Below, in pieces: positions 3,794 to 30,687 of a stretch of DNA of 32,272 bases. A program made the translations under genes and the position numbers. Source of the DNA: a virus; IMG/VR virus record IMGVR_UViG_3300033552_000039, positions 1-32,272 of that record; one strand, 5' to 3'. The notes under the pieces are model-generated. The model saw only the letters and a list, made by a program, of their open reading frames with translations, was not told the DNA's origin and made no database searches. Numbering within the stretch: the stretch's first letter is position 1; every line of letters starts with the position of its first letter.

Positions 3794-3844
3794 AACAAAG
3801 TTGAATTATTCAACCTTTTAAAACACACCCTAAAACTACTTTTA
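3794..3844 (+). promoter_or_regulatory. Late promoter module, copy 2 (before tape measure)
   Basis: AACAAAG leads into the 15-bp palindrome GTTGAATTATTCAAC (3800-3814); 22 bases later is TACTTTTA (3837-3844), five of six specified bases of the Bacteroidota -7 box TAnnTTTG. The same parts at the same spacing occur before the portal (29385-29435). The palindrome centre would lie near -42, the place of a class II activator site. There is no TTTG at the -33 position, in line with activator dependence. Promoter function is inferred. Confidence 0.7.
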
Positions 3845-3862
3845 ACCCTTAATTAAAAGTAG
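3836..3862 (+). promoter_or_regulatory. Leader hairpin just before the tape measure start
   Basis: Perfect 10-bp inverted repeat (CTACTTTTAA at 3836-3845, complement at 3853-3862) with a 7-base loop, ending 4 bases before the tape measure ATG. It overlaps the -7-like box, so at DNA level it may be part of a regulator site; if transcribed it could mask the start. The portal-side copy of the promoter lacks it. Confidence 0.45.
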
Positions 3863-3866
3863 TCAC

Positions 3867-6326
3867 ATGGCATCATTAGCGAGTATCAACATTCGATTTG
3901 CAGTTGACCTTCGGGAGTTTTCCTCGGAGATGCAAAATTCGTTGAGAACTATTGATAAAGTAGGGCAAAAGTTTCAAGCAGTTGGACGTTCTATGTCCGC
4001 TTTTGTGACGTTGCCAATATTAGCAGCAGGAGCGGCAGCCGTGAAGTTTGCCAGTGATTATCAGGAGTCGTTAAATAAAGTAGATGTCGCTTTTAAATCT
4101 AATTCTACTCAGGTAAAAGAATTTTCAAAAAGCTCTTTAGAAAATTTTGGTATTGCTGAAGGCACCGCTTTAGATATGGCTGCTGCTTATGGCGATATGG
4201 GTACCAGTATGGGATTGACTACGGGTCAAGCAGCTAAAATGTCTACTTCTTTAGTAGGTTTAGCTGGGGATTTAGCATCGTTCAAAAACATCTCTATTGA
4301 CATTGCAAATACTGCAATATCAGCAATTTTTACAGGAGAAACAGAAAGTTTGAAAAAGCTTGGTATTGTAATGACTGAAGTTAATTTAAAGCAATTTGCT
4401 TTGAATTCTGGTATCAAAAAGAATTACGAGCAAATGTCGCAAGCTGAAAAAGTACAATTGCGGTACAATTATATTTTATCAGTTACTAAAAATGCACAGG
4501 GCGATTTTGAGCGTACACAAGGCGGTGCAGCGAATCAAACAAGAATATTCACTGAATCCTTAAAGCAAATAGGACAGCAACTTGGAGCGGTTATTTTGCC
4601 TTTGTTTACTCAGGTAATTACTGCGGTTAATGAAAAAATAAAAGCATTTTCGAAGCTTTCTGAAAGTACTAAAACAACTATCGTGGTTATTGCAGGATTA
4701 GTGGCTGTCATTGGTCCGTTGTTGTTAGGAATTGGTGCAATACTTTCTATCATTCCTTTTGTTGTAGCTGGATTTGCAGTTATATCTGGTGCAATAGTTC
4801 CTATTTTGGCGGGATTGGTTTTATTGACTGGTGCTTTATTGATTGCGAAAAATGCTTTTGCTGATACTGCAAAAGCGGTGGTTACACTTACGGATAATCA
4901 AAAGTTAATCCAGAAAGTTACAGACGAAGCAACTGCTTCTATTGTAGATCAAAAGGCTGAACTGGAAAACTTATTGATTACGGCTCGAAATGAAAATGAA
5001 ACAAAAGCCAATAGACTGAAAGCAATTCAGGCTATTAATAAGATATCACCTGAGTACCTGGGGAATCTTACTCTTGAAAATATAGGTACGGATAAAGCTC
5101 GTGTGGCTATTGAAAAATACAATGCAGCACTTATTTCAGGTGCAACGGCTCGTGCAGCTTCTCGATTATTAGAGCAAAACCAATCTGATAAAATTAAGGC
5201 GGGTTTTGAGCGTGAAAAAGCATTAGCAGATTATAATGCAAAACGTGAAAACGCTATTGGGCAAGGTTGGGAAGCTGAAAAAGCATTCTATGAAGAAAAC
5301 AACCGTTTGATGCAATTTGCAAATGAAGCGTTGGACCGTAAAAATGCAAAATACGATTCGGAAGCTAAATTGCTTACGGAAATCTACAATAAAAACAAGC
5401 AAAATTTAGACTTACTAAACGGAAATACGGTAACACCGGATGTTGTTCGTGAAGCAAAAGTAAAAAAAGAAAAAGCAGTAAAAGCACCTTCTAATTTAAC
5501 CGCTCTTAATAGTACTTTACCAGTTGCAGTGTCGGCAGGAAGTATTGAATCCTATGATCGTGAAATTGCAAAACTAATTGAGTTTAGAGATCAGTTTGCC
5601 ACTACTGCCGAACAGGTAAAGCTAGCAAATGAAAAGATTGCAAATGTTGAATTTGCTAAGGCTTTAAATTTTGATCCGACTTCTTTGATTACAACCACTG
5701 AAACTACTGAAGAAATGATGCTTCGTTTAGCGGCAGCTGTCGGTGGTGCATCTGCTTCTATGGTTGCTGATCAAGAAAGAATTATGACTACAGGGCAATT
5801 GCTTTCTGAATCAGTAGGAAGTTCATTTAGTGCTTTGGGCGATAGTATGATTGCTAGTTTAGGTTTGGCTTCAACTGGACTTGCGGGTTTTGCTTCTACA
5901 ATGCTTAAAACATTAGTTGATTTAATTCAAATGGTTGTAAAGCAAATAGTAGTTAATCAGGCATTGGCTATGAGTAATTCTATTGCGGGTGCAACTGCTT
6001 CTGGTGCGGCTACAGGACCTGGAGCTATATTTACCACACCTGCGTTTATAGCTACCGCTATTGGTGGGGTTTTAGCTGCTTTTGCTGCGATTCCTAAATT
6101 TGAAACGGGTGGTATTGTTTCCGGTTCTTCAATGTATGGAGATAAAATCCTTGCTCGTGTAAATAGCGGTGAAATGATTGCTAATGACAAACAACAAAAG
6201 AACATTTGGGCGGCCATGAATACAGGTGGTGGCGATGTAAGTATTGTTCCAAGTATTAAGCTGGTAGGTTCTGATTTCTTAATCATGTTTGAGCGCGCTC
6301 AGGCACGTAAAAACCGCATAGGATAA
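3867..6326 (+). CDS. Tape measure protein
   Basis: The 819-residue protein is the longest helical protein of the tail module and follows the chaperones. Residues 1-230 are Ala/Ser-rich helices typical of tape measure N-termini; about 268-328 is a cluster of strongly hydrophobic segments; about 360-560 is charged coiled coil with repeated 'ENETKANRLKAI'-type heptads; residues 690-760 are Gly/Ala-rich and hydrophobic; the end is short and basic. Using the family rule of about 0.15 nm per residue, the tail would be about 120 nm. The gene has its own promoter module, and its stop overlaps the next ATG by one base. Confidence 0.93.
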   Translation: MASLASINIRFAVDLREFSSEMQNSLRTIDKVGQKFQAVGRSMSAFVTLPILAAGAAAVKFASDYQESLNKVDVAFKSNSTQVKEFSKSSLENFGIAEGTALDMAAAYGDMGTSMGLTTGQAAKMSTSLVGLAGDLASFKNISIDIANTAISAIFTGETESLKKLGIVMTEVNLKQFALNSGIKKNYEQMSQAEKVQLRYNYILSVTKNAQGDFERTQGGAANQTRIFTESLKQIGQQLGAVILPLFTQVITAVNEKIKAFSKLSESTKTTIVVIAGLVAVIGPLLLGIGAILSIIPFVVAGFAVISGAIVPILAGLVLLTGALLIAKNAFADTAKAVVTLTDNQKLIQKVTDEATASIVDQKAELENLLITARNENETKANRLKAIQAINKISPEYLGNLTLENIGTDKARVAIEKYNAALISGATARAASRLLEQNQSDKIKAGFEREKALADYNAKRENAIGQGWEAEKAFYEENNRLMQFANEALDRKNAKYDSEAKLLTEIYNKNKQNLDLLNGNTVTPDVVREAKVKKEKAVKAPSNLTALNSTLPVAVSAGSIESYDREIAKLIEFRDQFATTAEQVKLANEKIANVEFAKALNFDPTSLITTTETTEEMMLRLAAAVGGASASMVADQERIMTTGQLLSESVGSSFSALGDSMIASLGLASTGLAGFASTMLKTLVDLIQMVVKQIVVNQALAMSNSIAGATASGAATGPGAIFTTPAFIATAIGGVLAAFAAIPKFETGGIVSGSSMYGDKILARVNSGEMIANDKQQKNIWAAMNTGGGDVSIVPSIKLVGSDFLIMFERAQARKNRIG

Positions 6327-13876: not shown

Positions 13877-14127
13877 CACGTATATTCACGAATAATTAAC
13901 ACAAAAAAATACCTTACAAATTGTCAGGTTCTTATTTTATTGGGTTATACGTGTTTTCGTTTGTGCCTTCTAAGCAGGCGGTCGAAGGTTCGAATCCTTC
14001 TGCCTTCACAACAAAACCCACTGGATTCAGTGGGTTTTTTGCGTTTAATGATTTTTGTATTTCTTATTTTCTTACATTTACCACAACAAAAAGCAACATT
14101 TTACGACATTTTCACGAACAATTCACG
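13875..14127 (+). other. attP: attP: tRNA-Arg(UCU) 3'-half core with flanking arm sites
   Basis: The core (about 13964-14008) is the 3' part of a tRNA gene: anticodon loop CTTCTAA with anticodon TCT at 13969-13971, 3' anticodon stem GCAGG, variable CGGTC, T arm GAAGG-TTCGAAT-CCTTC and acceptor strand TGCCTTC plus A73. The 5' half is absent, so this is not a gene. Flanking it are paired TTCACG repeats: left at 13875-13880 and 13885-13890, right at 14111-14116 and 14122-14127, spaced about one helical turn; TTCACGAAYAATT is shared by left (13885) and right (14111). These look like integrase arm-binding sites. Integration would restore an intact host tRNA-Arg. Confidence 0.85.
14013..14040 (+). 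terminator. Terminator just after the tRNA core
   Basis: Perfect 11-bp stem (14013-14023 with 14028-14038), loop GATT, then a T-run. It begins 4 bases after the tRNA 3' end, so the phage brings a terminator for the reconstituted host tRNA and prevents tRNA transcription from running into the integrase. Confidence 0.85.
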
Positions 14128-14130
14128 AAC

Positions 14131-15339
14131 ATGAAAATAGAAATTAAACTTATTACTTCCCGAAAAGAATCAGCTGAAGGGTTTCCGTTGGTGGTGGAAA
14201 TCGCGCACCAAAATAAACGTAAATCTAAAACAATTGCTTTTTGTGCAGCTAATCATTTTATCCAGGACGGAAAAACGATTTCGAGCAAGCATCCTGATTA
14301 TGATGTTTTGGCACCTATCATAATGGAGTTGAAAATTAGAGCTAGAAAACTGATATTAAGCTGTGTTACCGATGTTGAAAAAACATATCAAGACATGTTT
14401 GCTATGGATTTTTCGCAAATTGGATTTTTAGATTATGCTAATAAATTGATTGCTGAAATGAAAAGCGTGGCTGAAAATGTAGGGAAGTATGATTTGAAGG
14501 CTAAAAATAAATTATTAGGAAACATTAGGTGTTATGATAATGTGATCGCGCAATTCGGGAATTTTGGTAAAAACGTCTCTTTGCAAAATTTGGATTATGA
14601 AATTTTAATGCGTTTTAAGAACTACAATATTAGCATTGGGAATTCGAAACCTACGATACATTTGTATTTGCGCACTTTGCGCTCTATTTATAATAAAGGA
14701 ATTCTGATGCACAAGTTTGCGGACCAAAAGCCATTTAATGGCGTTTTTGATGGATTGAAAACCAGAAGCTTTGATTCTCAAAAAAAGTACCTTGATCGTG
14801 AAACATTGGTAAAATTGGAAAATTTAGACCTGAAAAATGAAAAGCAGAAATATGTAGATCTATTTTTGTTGCAGTTTTATTTTGGTGGTTGTGATTTGAT
14901 TGATTTGTATTACCTGAAAAAAAGACAAATACGTAAAGGGCGTATTGTTTTTGAACGTACTAAAACGAATACTGGAACCCGAATTGATTTGAAAGTGCAC
15001 CCAAAAGCAAGCGCGCTATTGGCAAAATATCCAAATGATGGTGATTGGTTGTTCCCCTGGAAAAAAGAGAATGAATCCTATATTACTTTTCGCAGGAATT
15101 ACCAAAGGGATATTTTGATAGTTCAAACAAAAAATAAGATTGAAGTGTTGCCTGATGGTGGTAATCTTGCTATAAAAGTGGCTCGCCATACCTTTGCTAA
15201 CTTAGCAAAAACCCTGAATATTGAAACCGATGTGATCCGGGAACTTATGGGCCACGAGCGGGACGATGTTGATAATTACTACAAAGACAAATATCCTGAA
15301 GTTGTACGGGATAAAGCGCTGTTTGATGTTATTGGATAA
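14131..15339 (+). CDS. int: Tyrosine-recombinase integrase
   Basis: A 402-residue integrase next to attP. I place the start at ATG 14131; an open frame reaches back to 13921 but that would translate the tRNA core. Residues 1-75 are an arm-binding domain ('KIEIKLITSRKES'), about 95-200 the SAM-like core-binding domain, and 220-402 the catalytic domain with 'VARHTFA' (Arg352, His353), 'LMGHERDD' (His375) and 'NYYKDKYPE' with nucleophile Tyr384 nine residues after His375. The box I arginine is not seen: the equivalent stretch reads 'FYFGGCDLIDLYYLK' (251-265) with Gly in place of Arg. It should catalyse attP x attB recombination at tRNA-Arg(UCU), helped by the Xis-like protein at 17690. Confidence 0.92.
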   Translation: MKIEIKLITSRKESAEGFPLVVEIAHQNKRKSKTIAFCAANHFIQDGKTISSKHPDYDVLAPIIMELKIRARKLILSCVTDVEKTYQDMFAMDFSQIGFLDYANKLIAEMKSVAENVGKYDLKAKNKLLGNIRCYDNVIAQFGNFGKNVSLQNLDYEILMRFKNYNISIGNSKPTIHLYLRTLRSIYNKGILMHKFADQKPFNGVFDGLKTRSFDSQKKYLDRETLVKLENLDLKNEKQKYVDLFLLQFYFGGCDLIDLYYLKKRQIRKGRIVFERTKTNTGTRIDLKVHPKASALLAKYPNDGDWLFPWKKENESYITFRRNYQRDILIVQTKNKIEVLPDGGNLAIKVARHTFANLAKTLNIETDVIRELMGHERDDVDNYYKDKYPEVVRDKALFDVIG

Positions 15340-17355: not shown

Positions 17356-17363
17356 TATATTTG
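17356..17363 (+). promoter_or_regulatory. Early rightward promoter -7 box
   Basis: TATATTTG, a perfect Bacteroidota -7 box, 7 bases right of the second TATCGATA operator, so repressor there would block it. A TTTG at 17337-17340 is closer than the usual -33 spacing. It should transcribe the early genes from 17430 on. Confidence 0.6.
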
Positions 17364-17429
17364 TCCTGTCAAATAATACAAATGAACATTACAATATGTG
17401 TGCCAACCTTGACAAGACAATACAAATAT

Positions 17430-17687
17430 ATGAAAAACTTGATACAAATTGACCCTGTTGATGACGAAATGGCTTTGCTAGGTAATGCTGTTTTTATTTT
17501 AAACAACTACAAAAAAGTAGGTTTTGTAAAAAGAGAATCTTTTGTGGAGCTAATTATGGATGAAGATAAGTCTTACCATACACTGCAAGGAATGCAGAAA
17601 TTAAATAATTTTTGGGCCGGTCGTGTAAAAGATAAATCCTTGAATGAAGATTTAACTCGAATTCTTGAAAACATGAAATCGGAATAA
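17430..17687 (+). CDS. First early gene, Cro-position regulator candidate
   Basis: The most probable start is ATG 17430 (85 residues); ATG 17382 is also possible (101 residues), but lies only about 12 bases after the likely transcript start. The product is helical, with 'PVDDEMALLGNAVFILNNY' and 'YHTLQGMQKLNNFWAGRVKD'. It is divergent from the repressor and immediately right of the operators, where phages put Cro. I do not see a standard HTH, so a regulator role rests on position only. It is followed 2 bases later by the Xis-like gene. Confidence 0.65.
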   Translation: MKNLIQIDPVDDEMALLGNAVFILNNYKKVGFVKRESFVELIMDEDKSYHTLQGMQKLNNFWAGRVKDKSLNEDLTRILENMKSE

Positions 17688-17689
17688 TT

Positions 17690-18001
17690 ATGTCAAAACT
17701 TAACTACATAAACGCAACTGATTTTATTGAGACGCTTAAATCTCATGGACTCGTAATTGTTTCTATTCGGGAATTTGAAGCGGGAAAAGATTTGTTGCGT
17801 AAAAAGCTGATGCGTAGAAAAGCGCTTTCGCTTAAGGAAATTGCAGACAATAAATTGCTTCCTGTGAAGGATAAAAAAACGGTTAATGACTGGATTATTA
17901 ATGAAAAAATAAAACCTACTGAAACTTATCAAGAAGCAGGCGGATGTAAAAGAATAATGGTTTTAACAAGTGCAATAAGAAGATTAGGTTATGAAGACTG
18001 A
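17690..18001 (+). CDS. Excisionase-like HTH protein
   Basis: A 103-residue basic protein with a winged-helix/MerR-like pattern in its second half: 'ALSLKEIADNKLLPV' as first helix, 'DKKTVNDWIINEKIKPTETY' as turn and recognition helix plus wing, and 'KRIMVLTSAIRRLG' as final strand and helix. This resembles DNA-binding excisionases that read 'column' type target in Bacteroidota phages. Position in the early operon near the integrase module fits. It may instead be a transcription factor. Its stop overlaps the next start by 11 bases. Confidence 0.65.
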   Translation: MSKLNYINATDFIETLKSHGLVIVSIREFEAGKDLLRKKLMRRKALSLKEIADNKLLPVKDKKTVNDWIINEKIKPTETYQEAGGCKRIMVLTSAIRRLGYED

Positions 18002-23850: not shown

Positions 23851-24321
23851 ATGGAAAAATTAAGAATTATAAAAGGGGATGGTGAAGTAGCAGTTGTAAA
23901 TAAAAATCTATACGAGATTTTAAAAAAACTTCCTGCGCCAAACTCAAAATTTGAATTATCAAAAGAGCAGAAATATTGGTATGAATATTTTGGTCAGCAA
24001 TTGATTGACACGCAAAAATTAACGAAACCTGATTTAATTCATTTACATCAATTAGCCACTTCAGTAGATTATTATATCCAGGCAGAAAATGAAATTAGAA
24101 AGCAAGGATTTCATGGTGGTTTGATACAAACTTTTAAAGGCGGTGCCACAAATGTTTCCGGTTATGTGACAATCCGAGAAAAAATGATAAAAGAAATCAA
24201 TGAGCTTTCTAAACATTTTGGATTTAGTTTTAAGGACCGAAGTAAATTAGTTGAGCAAAAAGAAACTGATTCAGGACAGCAAGATATTTTTAAGCAGTTT
24301 TTGGAAGCTAGTCATGGGTAA
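23851..24321 (+). CDS. terS: Terminase small subunit, P27 family
   Basis: A 156-residue protein matching the P27-type small terminase: 'LSKEQKYWYEYFGQQLIDTQ' (about 37-56), then 'LTKPDLIHLHQLATSVDYYI' and the C-terminal 'SGYVTIREKMIKEINELSKH' followed by 'FGFSFKDRSKL', the family's typical end. It recognises the packaging start and delivers DNA to TerL. Its partner TerL lies 1.9 kb downstream instead of adjacent, because of an insertion carrying a hairpin, a small gene, a recombinase and an HTH gene. Confidence 0.9.
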   Translation: MEKLRIIKGDGEVAVVNKNLYEILKKLPAPNSKFELSKEQKYWYEYFGQQLIDTQKLTKPDLIHLHQLATSVDYYIQAENEIRKQGFHGGLIQTFKGGATNVSGYVTIREKMIKEINELSKHFGFSFKDRSKLVEQKETDSGQQDIFKQFLEASHG

Positions 24322-24600: not shown

Positions 24601-24701
24601 CTATAACAAATTTTCTAATTAAAACGAAAACTTAGCAATTGAAGATAACGTTCCTATTTACTCAACACACAAAATCACCAATAACCACAACACTTAAGCT
24701 T

Positions 24702-25502
24702 ATGAATTCCGCAAAGTACATCCAAGACTATGAGAGAGATTTGAGATTCATTCACTTCTCAATTGAAACAATCAAAAACTACAGCAGCCAAATAAAACTA
24801 TTCCTGGCTTATTTTAAAGAAAAAGACAGTCCTAAACATATTTCGGCAGATGAAATTAAGAATTATCTTTTGAATGCCAAAGAAGTTAATTCGCAAAACG
24901 CAATGCACTCGGCAATCAAAAAGTTTTATATTTTAACAATCAAACAGACCAGAAAATTCGAATACATAACCTACGCTAAAACAGAAAAGAAAATCCCGTT
25001 GGTAATCGATATGGATGAATTGGTAGTTATGATTAATAAAATTGAAAACAAAAAACACAAAGCAATTATTGCTTTGACGGCTTCGGTAGGTTTGCGAGTT
25101 TCGGAAGTATTAAATTTAAAACTGGAGCATATTAGCACGCCACTGATGCAAATTAGAATTATTGGTGCAAAAGGTAAAAAAGACCGAATAGTTCCGCTTA
25201 CGGCAACAACAAGAGAGATAATACGATTGTATTACGTGGAATATCTTCCAAAAGAATACTTATTTAATGGTCAGTTCAGTTTGCAGTATTCATCTGGAAG
25301 TTGCAACCAGATAGTAAAAAAATATCTAGGCAAACAATACCACATGCACACGTTACGGCATAGTGCGGCAACCGGATTATTCGAAAAAGGAACAGATCTA
25401 AAATTAATATCAGATTTATTGGGGCATACGTCATTAAAAACAACTTCGATTTATGTGCATACTTCGAGTAAGAAATTAAAAAGTTTGCCTTTTGGTATTT
25501 AA
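24702..25502 (+). CDS. Second tyrosine recombinase, XerC/D-like
   Basis: A 266-residue recombinase from ATG 24702 (a TTG at 24639 could add 21 residues). N-terminal SAM-like domain with 'YSSQIKLFLAYFKEKD'; catalytic domain with all expected residues: Arg132 ('SVGLRVSEVLNL'), a beta-hairpin Lys in 'GAKGKKDRIVPL', His216 and Arg219 ('HTLRHSAATGL'), His242 ('LLGHTSLKTT') and Tyr251 ('SIYVH'). Unlike the attP integrase it lacks an arm-binding domain, so it resembles Xer and mobile-element recombinases. Its place between TerS and TerL marks an inserted element. It may act on the nearby inverted repeat or on host dif. Confidence 0.85.
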   Translation: MNSAKYIQDYERDLRFIHFSIETIKNYSSQIKLFLAYFKEKDSPKHISADEIKNYLLNAKEVNSQNAMHSAIKKFYILTIKQTRKFEYITYAKTEKKIPLVIDMDELVVMINKIENKKHKAIIALTASVGLRVSEVLNLKLEHISTPLMQIRIIGAKGKKDRIVPLTATTREIIRLYYVEYLPKEYLFNGQFSLQYSSGSCNQIVKKYLGKQYHMHTLRHSAATGLFEKGTDLKLISDLLGHTSLKTTSIYVHTSSKKLKSLPFGI

Positions 25503-25562: not shown

Positions 25563-25784
25563 TTAAGGTAATAATTCCGAAAAATTAATATCTAGAGCTT
25601 TGCAAATTTTAAAAAGGGAACCAATGGTAGTGTTAATTTCACCCCGTTCAATTCTACCTATTTGGTTAATTGGAATATTGGCATCATGAGAAAGTGTGGC
25701 TTGCGAAAGATTCTTAGACAATCTTTTTTCTCTAAGTTTTTGCCCAACATTTTTAATAAATATTTTTTCTATTTTTTCTAACAC
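25563..25784 (-). CDS. XRE-family HTH regulator
   Basis: A 73-residue single-domain HTH_3 protein: 'GQKLREKRLSKNLSQATLSH' (first helices), 'DANIPINQIGRIERGEINTT' (recognition helix and following turn) and 'IGSLFKICKALDINFSELLP' (last helices). It is transcribed against the surrounding terminase genes and is divergent from the 25875 gene, with a dyad operator between them. It should bind that dyad and repress itself and perhaps the TerL-side transcript. It is distinct from the 16897 repressor. Such genes are frequent in restriction-modification and mobile elements. Confidence 0.88.
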   Translation of the reverse strand: MLEKIEKIFIKNVGQKLREKRLSKNLSQATLSHDANIPINQIGRIERGEINTTIGSLFKICKALDINFSELLP

Positions 25785-25874: not shown

Positions 25875-26264
25875 ATGAAAGTTAATCCAGGAACAGAAGT
25901 TCAATTCGAAAATAAAGAGTTTAGGTATTGCGCAGATCAAGATGGTGATGTGAGATTTGATACTTGGGTTTTAAAATCACCAGGTAATATATTGAAGTTT
26001 GTAAAAGAAGGTTTTGAGGTTAAAATTATTACAAGCAAGTTCCCACACGGATTTTACGGCTACGGTTTTGGCGGCAATGCTTTACATGATATACAGCAAT
26101 GTTACTGCTCAGGCACTTTGGATACTAAAACTTTCAAAACAGAATTTGAAGCGCAATGTGCAGCTATCAACTATGTTTTGAAATACCAGCTACCTTCAGA
26201 CTGGCACCGACATTTTATTCGCTTGCAAATGACTGAATTTGTAAATCCAAAAACACTTTTTTAA
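25875..26264 (+). CDS. Unknown protein coupled to TerL, 129 residues
   Basis: A soluble protein with an N-terminal beta part ('GTEVQFENKEFRYCADQDGD', 'VRFDTWVLKSPGNILKFVKE'), a Gly/Tyr/Phe-rich loop ('FPHGFYGYGFGGNALHDIQQ') and a helical end ('EFEAQCAAINYVLKYQLPSD'). Three or four Cys are present but not in a zinc pattern. Its stop TAA overlaps the TerL ATG by one base, so it is co-translated with TerL, and it is divergent from the XRE gene. I do not recognise the family; a host- or DNA-modifying accessory is possible. Confidence 0.72.
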   Translation: MKVNPGTEVQFENKEFRYCADQDGDVRFDTWVLKSPGNILKFVKEGFEVKIITSKFPHGFYGYGFGGNALHDIQQCYCSGTLDTKTFKTEFEAQCAAINYVLKYQLPSDWHRHFIRLQMTEFVNPKTLF

Positions 26265-28015: not shown

Positions 28016-28270
28016 ATGAATGCAGTCGAAGAAAATGCCCTTAGAATTTACATCGCTAAAATTGAAAAACAAAACGAGCAAATGCGAGAGCTCTCTACTA
28101 GAAAAGGTTTTTATGCCGCCTATTTTGTAGCGTTGAAAACCGCAAAATCCAACAAAGCAGCTTTTGATACTATAAATGAAACCTATCATGAATTATTCGG
28201 CAATTATCGCTATTCAGATTGGAACTCCTTCAAGAAAATGACAAACTATTACAATAATCAAAAAAAATAA
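28016..28270 (+). CDS. Small unknown protein after TerL, 84 residues
   Basis: A basic helical protein with 'NALRIYIAKIEKQNEQMREL' (coiled coil, residues 8-27) and a Tyr/Asn-rich second half ('YHELFGNYRYSDWNSFKKMT'). No family recognised. First of a run of six small genes between TerL and portal. Confidence 0.65.
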   Translation: MNAVEENALRIYIAKIEKQNEQMRELSTRKGFYAAYFVALKTAKSNKAAFDTINETYHELFGNYRYSDWNSFKKMTNYYNNQKK

Positions 28271-29384: not shown

Positions 29385-29435
29385 AACAAAGTTGAATAAT
29401 TCAACCATTTAGAAAGCATCGTTAAAATACTTTTA
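29385..29435 (+). promoter_or_regulatory. Late promoter module, copy 1 (before portal)
   Basis: AACAAAG leading into palindrome GTTGAATAATTCAAC (29391-29405), 22 bases, then TACTTTTA (29428-29435) and the portal ATG at 29455. The two copies differ at the centre base of the palindrome, and the 22-base spacer keeps 14 identical positions with the tape measure copy. The repeat of the parts at fixed spacing is what supports function; the activator is not identified. Confidence 0.7.
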
Positions 29436-29454
29436 CACCTAAATCGATGGCGTA

Positions 29455-30687
29455 ATGAGTTTGAACGGTGCTTTTAGCGAAATGTTTGCTTCTCAAAAAA
29501 GAAGTGTAAATACTGATAATTCCTATTTTTCGGGATTTGGAGGTATTTTTTCGCTTGGTACTTCGGGTACTAATATGAATGCTTCGAGAGCATTAAAACT
29601 TTCTGCATTTTACAATGGTGTTGATCAAATATCAAATGACATTGCGAAAATCCCTTTTTCGATATATCAAAAAGACGGTAAAGACCGTGTTTCAAGAACA
29701 AATCACCCTGCTTACAATGTAATTGCTATAGAGCCAAATTCACTAATGACATCCTTTGTTTTTCGTAAAACAATGGCTGTTTCTTTTTTGGTTAAAGGAA
29801 ACGCTTTAGCAAAAATCAATTCTGATAAAGCAGGAAAGCCTATATCTACAGATTTTATTAACTGGGATAGAGTGGATGATATTCGAATAAAAAACGGTGT
29901 ATTGCTTTATTATGTTTCTGGTTATAAATATCCATTATTATCTTCTGAAGTATTACATTTTAAAAACTTCTCTCACAACGGAATAAGCGGTGTGGGAGTC
30001 ATTACAAATGCAGCACAACAATTGAACCTGGCTATTGAAGTACAGGAATTTTCGGCAACAAATTTCGAAAATAAAGGCGTTCGTCAAGGGGTTGTTGAGA
30101 CTGATAAAGTAATATCAAAAGATACGTCAAAACTGGCAATCGCTGCGGCTATTCAAGGTGCTTTTTCTCAAAAAGACGCAACGCGTGTGGCAGTTCTTGA
30201 TGAAGGTATGAAGTGGAAAGCTATTACAGTAACACCTCAAGAAGCGCAAATTATCGAGCAAGCACGTTTCAGCATTGAAGATATTGCACGTTGGTTAAAC
30301 ATTGCGCCTCACAAAATTAAGTCTTTACAACAATCTACTAATAATAATATCGAGCAACAGTCTTTGGACCACGTGAGCGATACGATACAGCCTCACATTA
30401 CAAATTGGGAACAGGAATATGCTAAAAAATTATTCCTTCCTTCTGATATTCTGGAAGGATATTATGTGCGTGCAAATATGAATGTATTGCTTCGATCAGA
30501 TATTAAATCCCGTGGAGAATATTACGGTAAAGCGGTAAATGGTGGATGGATGAATAGAAATGAAGTGCGACAATTAGAAGATATGAATGCGGGTCCGGAA
30601 TTGTTAGAGGAATTTTTAACGCCTGTTAACACGTTTACCGAATCACAAATAAAAAACAATTTAAAAACGGCTCAAGATGGAAAGTAA
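29455..30687 (+). CDS. Portal protein (HK97 family)
   Basis: A 410-residue portal protein of the Phage_portal (HK97 gp3-like) family. Visible: 'RALKLSAFYNGVDQISNDIA' (about 44-63), 'PFSIYQKDGK', 'WDRVDDIRIKNGVLLYYVSG' (middle), 'HFKNFSHNGISGVGVI', 'SIEDIARWLNIAPHKIKSLQ' with 'QSTNNNIEQQS' (about 275-305), and the stem/crown part 'GWMNRNEVRQLEDMNAGP' near 363-380. It forms the dodecameric vertex for packaging. Own promoter lies upstream. Overlaps the protease gene by 11 bases. Confidence 0.93.
   Translation: MSLNGAFSEMFASQKRSVNTDNSYFSGFGGIFSLGTSGTNMNASRALKLSAFYNGVDQISNDIAKIPFSIYQKDGKDRVSRTNHPAYNVIAIEPNSLMTSFVFRKTMAVSFLVKGNALAKINSDKAGKPISTDFINWDRVDDIRIKNGVLLYYVSGYKYPLLSSEVLHFKNFSHNGISGVGVITNAAQQLNLAIEVQEFSATNFENKGVRQGVVETDKVISKDTSKLAIAAAIQGAFSQKDATRVAVLDEGMKWKAITVTPQEAQIIEQARFSIEDIARWLNIAPHKIKSLQQSTNNNIEQQSLDHVSDTIQPHITNWEQEYAKKLFLPSDILEGYYVRANMNVLLRSDIKSRGEYYGKAVNGGWMNRNEVRQLEDMNAGPELLEEFLTPVNTFTESQIKNNLKTAQDGK

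Follow-up and report, generated by a model that had tools for sequence, protein, structure and literature searches.

A conserved promoter-like module in Flavobacterium phages and gp84, its candidate late-transcription activator, with a site specificity that may be read from sequence

Ogr of phage P2 and Mor and C of phage Mu are phage-encoded proteins that activate late operons via the host RNA polymerase. Class II activators, such as CRP at class II promoters and lambda cI at PRM, bind a palindromic site at about -42 of promoters with a poor upstream element, and the hallmark of the class is a dimeric site centred about -41.5 from the start site. The nearest systems known for phage late genes are the Ltr families and RinA of Staphylococcus phages, with which we group the activator of late genes in lactococcal phage TP901-1. 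In Gram-positive phages, late regulators lie just upstream of the promoter; Ltr proteins have about 130 amino acids and are encoded before terminase or endonuclease genes, and Phi13 uses four direct repeats (PMC13123087). A late-gene activator of a Bacteroidota phage was not found described in the literature searched, which mostly did not extend to subscription journals. On the host side, the promoters of F. johnsoniae carry a -7 element with consensus TAHHTTTG at -12 to -5, its last G being nearly invariant, and in general show little -33 signal (PMC6847099).

The window, i.e., the whole stretch of DNA analysed here, is a 32,272-base viral record of a Flavobacterium phage (G000, also WIN), for which no near DNA match was found in the phage collection. 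It starts with head-tail and tail genes, followed by the tape measure gene (3867-6326, plus strand; PHROG tape measure, E 5.6e-41) and more tail genes, and it ends with the portal gene (29455-30687, plus strand; PHROG portal, E 6.6e-98), a protease gene and the capsid gene. The tape measure and portal genes are each the first gene after one copy of a short promoter-like module. After the large terminase gene and just before the portal module lies a gene (28016-28270, plus strand) for a basic protein of 84 amino acids, gp84, which we propose as the late-transcription activator.

In role and gene position, gp84 resembles the Ltr families and RinA (PMC13123087), with no detectable sequence relation to them and in a different host. 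Unlike the Ltr proteins, it has only 84 residues, is encoded after the large terminase, and would use one palindrome at a fixed distance at each of two target promoters. The module may resemble class II sites, with a palindrome that would be centred at about -42 beside a promoter whose upstream element is poor. It differs from CRP and lambda cI systems in its protein family and in the sigma factor and promoter type, which are those of Bacteroidota; moreover, its sites are phage-specific, and their type switches between close relatives. The proposed action on several late operons via the host RNA polymerase is that of P2 Ogr and Mu Mor and C, from which gp84 is set apart by the lack of a sequence match in Pfam or PHROG, by other hosts and by other site positions.

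The module consists of a 15-base palindrome, GTTGAAT-W-ATTCAAC, a spacer of 22 bases and a -7 box, TACTTTTA, and is found on the plus strand at 3800-3844 (tape-measure copy) and 29391-29435 (portal copy). In the tape-measure copy, the palindrome GTTGAATTATTCAAC (3800-3814) is followed by the spacer (3815-3836) and the box (3837-3844); in the portal copy, the palindrome GTTGAATAATTCAAC occupies 29391-29405, the spacer 29406-29427 and the box 29428-29435. The two palindromes are identical except for the central base, which is A in the portal copy, and both are directly preceded by AACAAA (3794-3799 and 29385-29390). A scan of the window for the 15-mer at no more than one mismatch returned those two positions only, and the identical geometry of palindrome, spacer and box at both genes, pointed out by the first-pass annotation, is exact. 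With a module defined as a 15-mer whose arms pair at 6 or 7 of 7 positions, placed 22 bases before TA[ACT]TTTTA, 0.04 are expected per shuffled window versus 2 observed, and arms paired at 7 of 7 positions occurred in 0 of 200 shuffles.

Relatives of the window allow for a comparison of the module across phages. Searches with the portal and the tape measure protein yielded 17 and 13 viral loci, respectively. The module is absent from four portal loci of about 30% identity (L031-L034), and the same layout stands upstream of the remaining start codons, with a palindrome that varies in sequence. The common types are GTTGAAT/ATTCAAC, GTTACAT/ATGTAAC and GTTAAAT/ATTTAAC; more distant palindromes include GTTTGAA, GTACAAA, GTTAACA, GGTACAA and GGGAACA, among others. 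Changes in the arms are paired, a change in one arm being matched in the other. Among 74 distinct sites, compiled from related phages and Flavobacterium prophages and located from their -7 boxes, 56 pair at 6 or 7 of the 7 arm positions with a 22-base spacer, and other spacers are stray cases at most. The first-pass annotation expected the palindrome in close relatives that share the gene order, and nearly all relatives have it, with identical geometry before the portal gene, the tape measure gene or both.

A scan of all 2.9 million viral contigs, allowing spacers of 12-32 and free of the bias of starting from the box, gave the same picture. The GTTACAT palindrome with a box occurs at 15 distinct places, every one with a spacer of 22 and every one in a contig with a portal, tape measure or gp84 gene. 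The more AT-rich GTTAAAT type was found 7 times at a spacer of 22, always in such contigs, versus 40 placements at other spacers, all in unrelated contigs. Palindrome matches in L008, L011, L012, L015 and L016 were set aside as lying in unrelated contexts, on contigs without phage relatives. Judged from these sequence comparisons, the module is a real conserved unit.

The two sites of a phage also match each other. In the 28 genomes with both copies, the portal and tape-measure palindromes of the same genome agree at 14.3 of 15 bases on average, versus 8.6 of 15 when copies are paired across genomes, and the observed value was reached in 0 of 20,000 shuffles. The sites within a genome thus point to one binding specificity per phage, which differs between phages. 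The within-genome match is broken in G022, with GTTAACAATGTTTCC before the portal gene and GTTACATAATGTAAC before the tape measure gene; since its gp84 is similar in helix 4 to the protein of G191 (portal site GTTAACAATGTTAAC), the portal copy of G022 fits its protein and the tape-measure copy does not. Poor palindromes occur among the distant sites (L101, CGGAACTTTCTACCG; G310), and some distant prophages carry the portal module and none before the tape measure gene. Cellulophaga phage phi39:1 encodes a gp84 homologue of 37% identity between terminase and portal (gp08, AGO49123.1, a hypothetical protein); the candidate site there, TACATAAATTGTTTA, pairs poorly as a palindrome, at 5 of 7 arm positions, and no module was seen upstream of its tape measure gene. 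Two modules in tandem precede the tape measure gene in a few relatives (L046/L068 of G005, L108 and L112). The G005 pair is mixed, GTTGAAT followed by GTTACAT, on a contig without its gp84, and may be a record of a specificity change or of recombination.

The spacing of the module places it in a promoter context. If the -7 box spans -12 to -5 as in F. johnsoniae, the palindrome extends from -49 to -35 with its centre at -42, in line with the position near -42 proposed by the first-pass annotation (numbering after PMC6847099). From this numbering, we infer start sites near 3849 and 29440, with leaders of 18 and 15 bases. The box retains T-A and T-T-T of the consensus. In 71 of the 74 sites, its last base (-5) is A where the consensus has G; together with the missing TTTG at -33, this makes the core promoter weaker than consensus. 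TTTG at -33 is found in neither window copy, as had been reported before, and there is no consensus at this position across the 74 sites, which counts as weak evidence because F. johnsoniae promoters in general have little -33 signal. Upstream of the palindrome, most sites carry AAA at -52 to -50, with A at -52 in 68 and at -50 in 69 of the 74.

Both copies also display a second inverted repeat, joining the region of the -7 box to the bases just 5' of the start codon. It reads CTACTTTTA ... TAAAAGTAG at the tape measure gene (3836-3862, plus strand) and TTACACC ... GGCGTAA, with one mismatch, at the portal gene (29433-29455, plus strand), where it reaches the start codon; its sequence differs between the two copies of the same genome. 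For the portal copy, the arms of a genome form 4.73 Watson-Crick pairs on average versus 3.95 when arms are swapped between genomes (sd 0.11; 41 relatives). For the tape-measure copy, the difference between own and swapped arms is weak. By its appearance, the second repeat would form a structure at the late mRNA 5' end.

A phage-encoded reader of the palindrome should vary along with it. We listed the genes common to the module-bearing contigs and aligned the conserved small ones; gp84 was found in all of the module-bearing contigs in which the terminase-portal region is covered. Across 15 genomes with the three common site types, 15 shared protein families provided 1,944 ungapped variable columns, of which residue 74 of gp84 is the sole perfect predictor of the site type, the next best column in any family scoring 0.79. 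This residue is K with GTTGAA (5/5), R with GTTACA (7/7) and V with GTTAAA (3/3); in the window it is the lysine codon AAA at 28235-28237 (plus strand), in helix 4. The independent cases are fewer than 15, as some of the genomes are close kin (WIN and G003; G002 and G006). On the portal tree, the site type switches about six times, with no more clustering than shuffled labels, and shared ancestry therefore does not explain the match between residue 74 and the site. Three genomes fetched after the rule had been noted (L095, G030 and G031) all obey it; on the short contigs L088 (R) and L089 (V), the portal module was not found, and these two do not enter the count.

Beyond the three common types, site distance correlates with the distance between gp84 helices 4 over 39 genomes (r 0.733; partial 0.645 given portal distance), versus partial r of 0.17-0.32 for other parts of gp84 in the same genomes. 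For distant site types, residue 74 alone is insufficient, and several positions of helix 4 contribute. The tie to gp84 is thereby established, alongside the module, its invariant geometry and the match of sites within a genome. The first-pass annotation had looked for the activator among early genes and named the products at 17430, 17690 and 25875, which turn out to be poor candidates, the product of 28016-28270 being the likely one. Homologues of the 17430 product (17361-17687) occur in two related contigs only, the product of 25875-26264 has none in any related contig, and that of 17690-18001 has no column tracking the palindrome. The XRE-type repressor on the minus strand (25563-25784) occurs in a minority of related contigs only, and the tyrosine recombinase at 24639-25502 is patchy among them.

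The AlphaFold model of gp84 (mean pLDDT 92.5) displays four helices at residues 3-26, 29-40, 46-61 and 69-82, which form a long N-terminal helix and a three-helix domain with residue 74 in the last helix. Residues 27-84 alone are predicted to adopt the same fold. A dimer is suggested by the first helix, which is long and apparently amphipathic. The protein is basic throughout the family, with a median pI of 9.3 over 42 members. No matches beyond chance level were found in Pfam, PHROG and NCBIfam, and none by sequence in the PDB. By fold, neither the whole model nor residues 27-84 gave a significant PDB match, which does not equal a new fold. A helix-turn-helix factor would carry a recognition helix; in gp84 it is helix 4 that tracks DNA specificity, and such a DNA-binding fold is putative. 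The best viral fold match is S0A4G7, a protein of 76 amino acids without a name (E 1.6e-4).

Among cellular genomes, gp84 is found in 15 of 398 Flavobacterium genomes, and 9 of 397 genomes in a wider sample of the family match it, including a few matches that are weak or contain stop codons. Flavobacterium algicola MBE-1 (L116) is an example of a lysogen with the system. Longer proteins of about 150-160 amino acids, in which a gp84-like domain is followed by a second domain, occur in G001, G019 and G028, where their genes lie outside the terminase-portal region (L047 about 3156, plus strand; L057 at 15372, minus strand; L064 at 8390, plus strand). They may represent a related regulator that serves a different gene block. 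Contig G014 has, besides the standard gp84, another gp84-like reading frame (L071, minus strand, about 10537).

Taken together, these observations can be best explained by gp84 acting as the late activator that reads both modules as late promoters and switches on the head and tail operons together, a reading to which we give a probability of roughly 80%. The two modules would be phage late promoters with a host-type -7 box weakened at its last base and without a -33 element. The palindrome at its fixed position of -49 to -35 would be bound by gp84, whose gene belongs to the block that has the terminase at its end. The protein would dimerise, probably via the long N-terminal helix, with each subunit reading one half-site through its last helix and residue 74 selecting between GTTGAA, GTTACA and GTTAAA. 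Positioned at -42 beside RNA polymerase, it would recruit the host sigma-A holoenzyme, so that the operon for the head, from the portal gene on, and that for the tail, from the tape measure gene on, are turned on together. The earlier proposal that a phage-encoded activator serves both late operons is supported, its phage origin being backed by the co-variation with gp84; binding and activation we infer from sequence, and activation is preferred to repression because of the position of the site and the quality of the promoter.

The same protein might instead bind the palindromes and repress the late promoters, e.g., in a lysogen. Co-variation, on which recognition rests, reports that a site is recognised and not with what outcome, so repression is conceivable; in addition, the palindrome would overlap the -33 region, and the genomes carry integrases, which makes lysogeny likely. 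We nevertheless regard it as unlikely, as the site at -42 lies upstream of the core promoter, the last base of the -7 box is off consensus in nearly all sites, and gp84 sits in the terminase block, whereas a lysogeny repressor is expected beside integrase-proximal genes on the reverse strand. The window itself contains two tyrosine recombinase genes. The first (13921-15339) follows the lysis genes, where the integrase usually lies; the second (24639-25502) stands between the genes for the small and the large terminase, adjoins the reverse-strand XRE gene and is present in some relatives only.

Two further explanations are far less probable still. A host regulator might bind the palindromes, the phage merely carrying its site, since bacteria commonly use activators of their own at -42; against this, the site type has changed about six times among close phages of a single bacterial genus, each time together with one particular residue of a phage protein, and the two sites within a genome match. 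Equally improbable is the possibility that the palindromes are packaging or replication sites with gp84 as a packaging accessory: its gene directly follows the large terminase, but a genome usually has a pair of sites, each standing exactly 22 bases ahead of a -7 box and near the start codon of a structural gene, and a separate small terminase is encoded at 23851-24321. A chance repeat or a recent functionless duplication, suggested by the two copies only in the AT-rich DNA of the window, is refuted by the comparison with relatives, where arms co-change and the spacer stays fixed across the 74 sites, and by the shuffled windows, and its probability is negligible.

Activation by gp84 at both modules thus remains the preferred reading. 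On the best reading of the sequences, gp84 represents a new family of phage late-transcription activators that bind as a dimer at -42 and whose specificity can be read from sequence. For the broader proposal, that gp84 founds a new family of DNA-binding activators in Bacteroidota phages, without known structural relatives, in which a few helix residues re-specify the target, with the protein and both promoters changing together, we see the odds as even. Phages of Bacteroidota are abundant in water and gut, and a so far unnamed protein of 84 residues gains a specific proposed function, promoters and a rule for its binding site. The repeated switching of site type along with one residue offers a natural data set on the co-evolution of a regulator with multiple sites, and the promoters with their activators would supply matched on-switches for Flavobacterium genetics. 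Should the broader proposal hold, the late promoters of closely related phages that share a host would be insulated from one another, and a natural protein-DNA recognition code would be readable from metagenomes.
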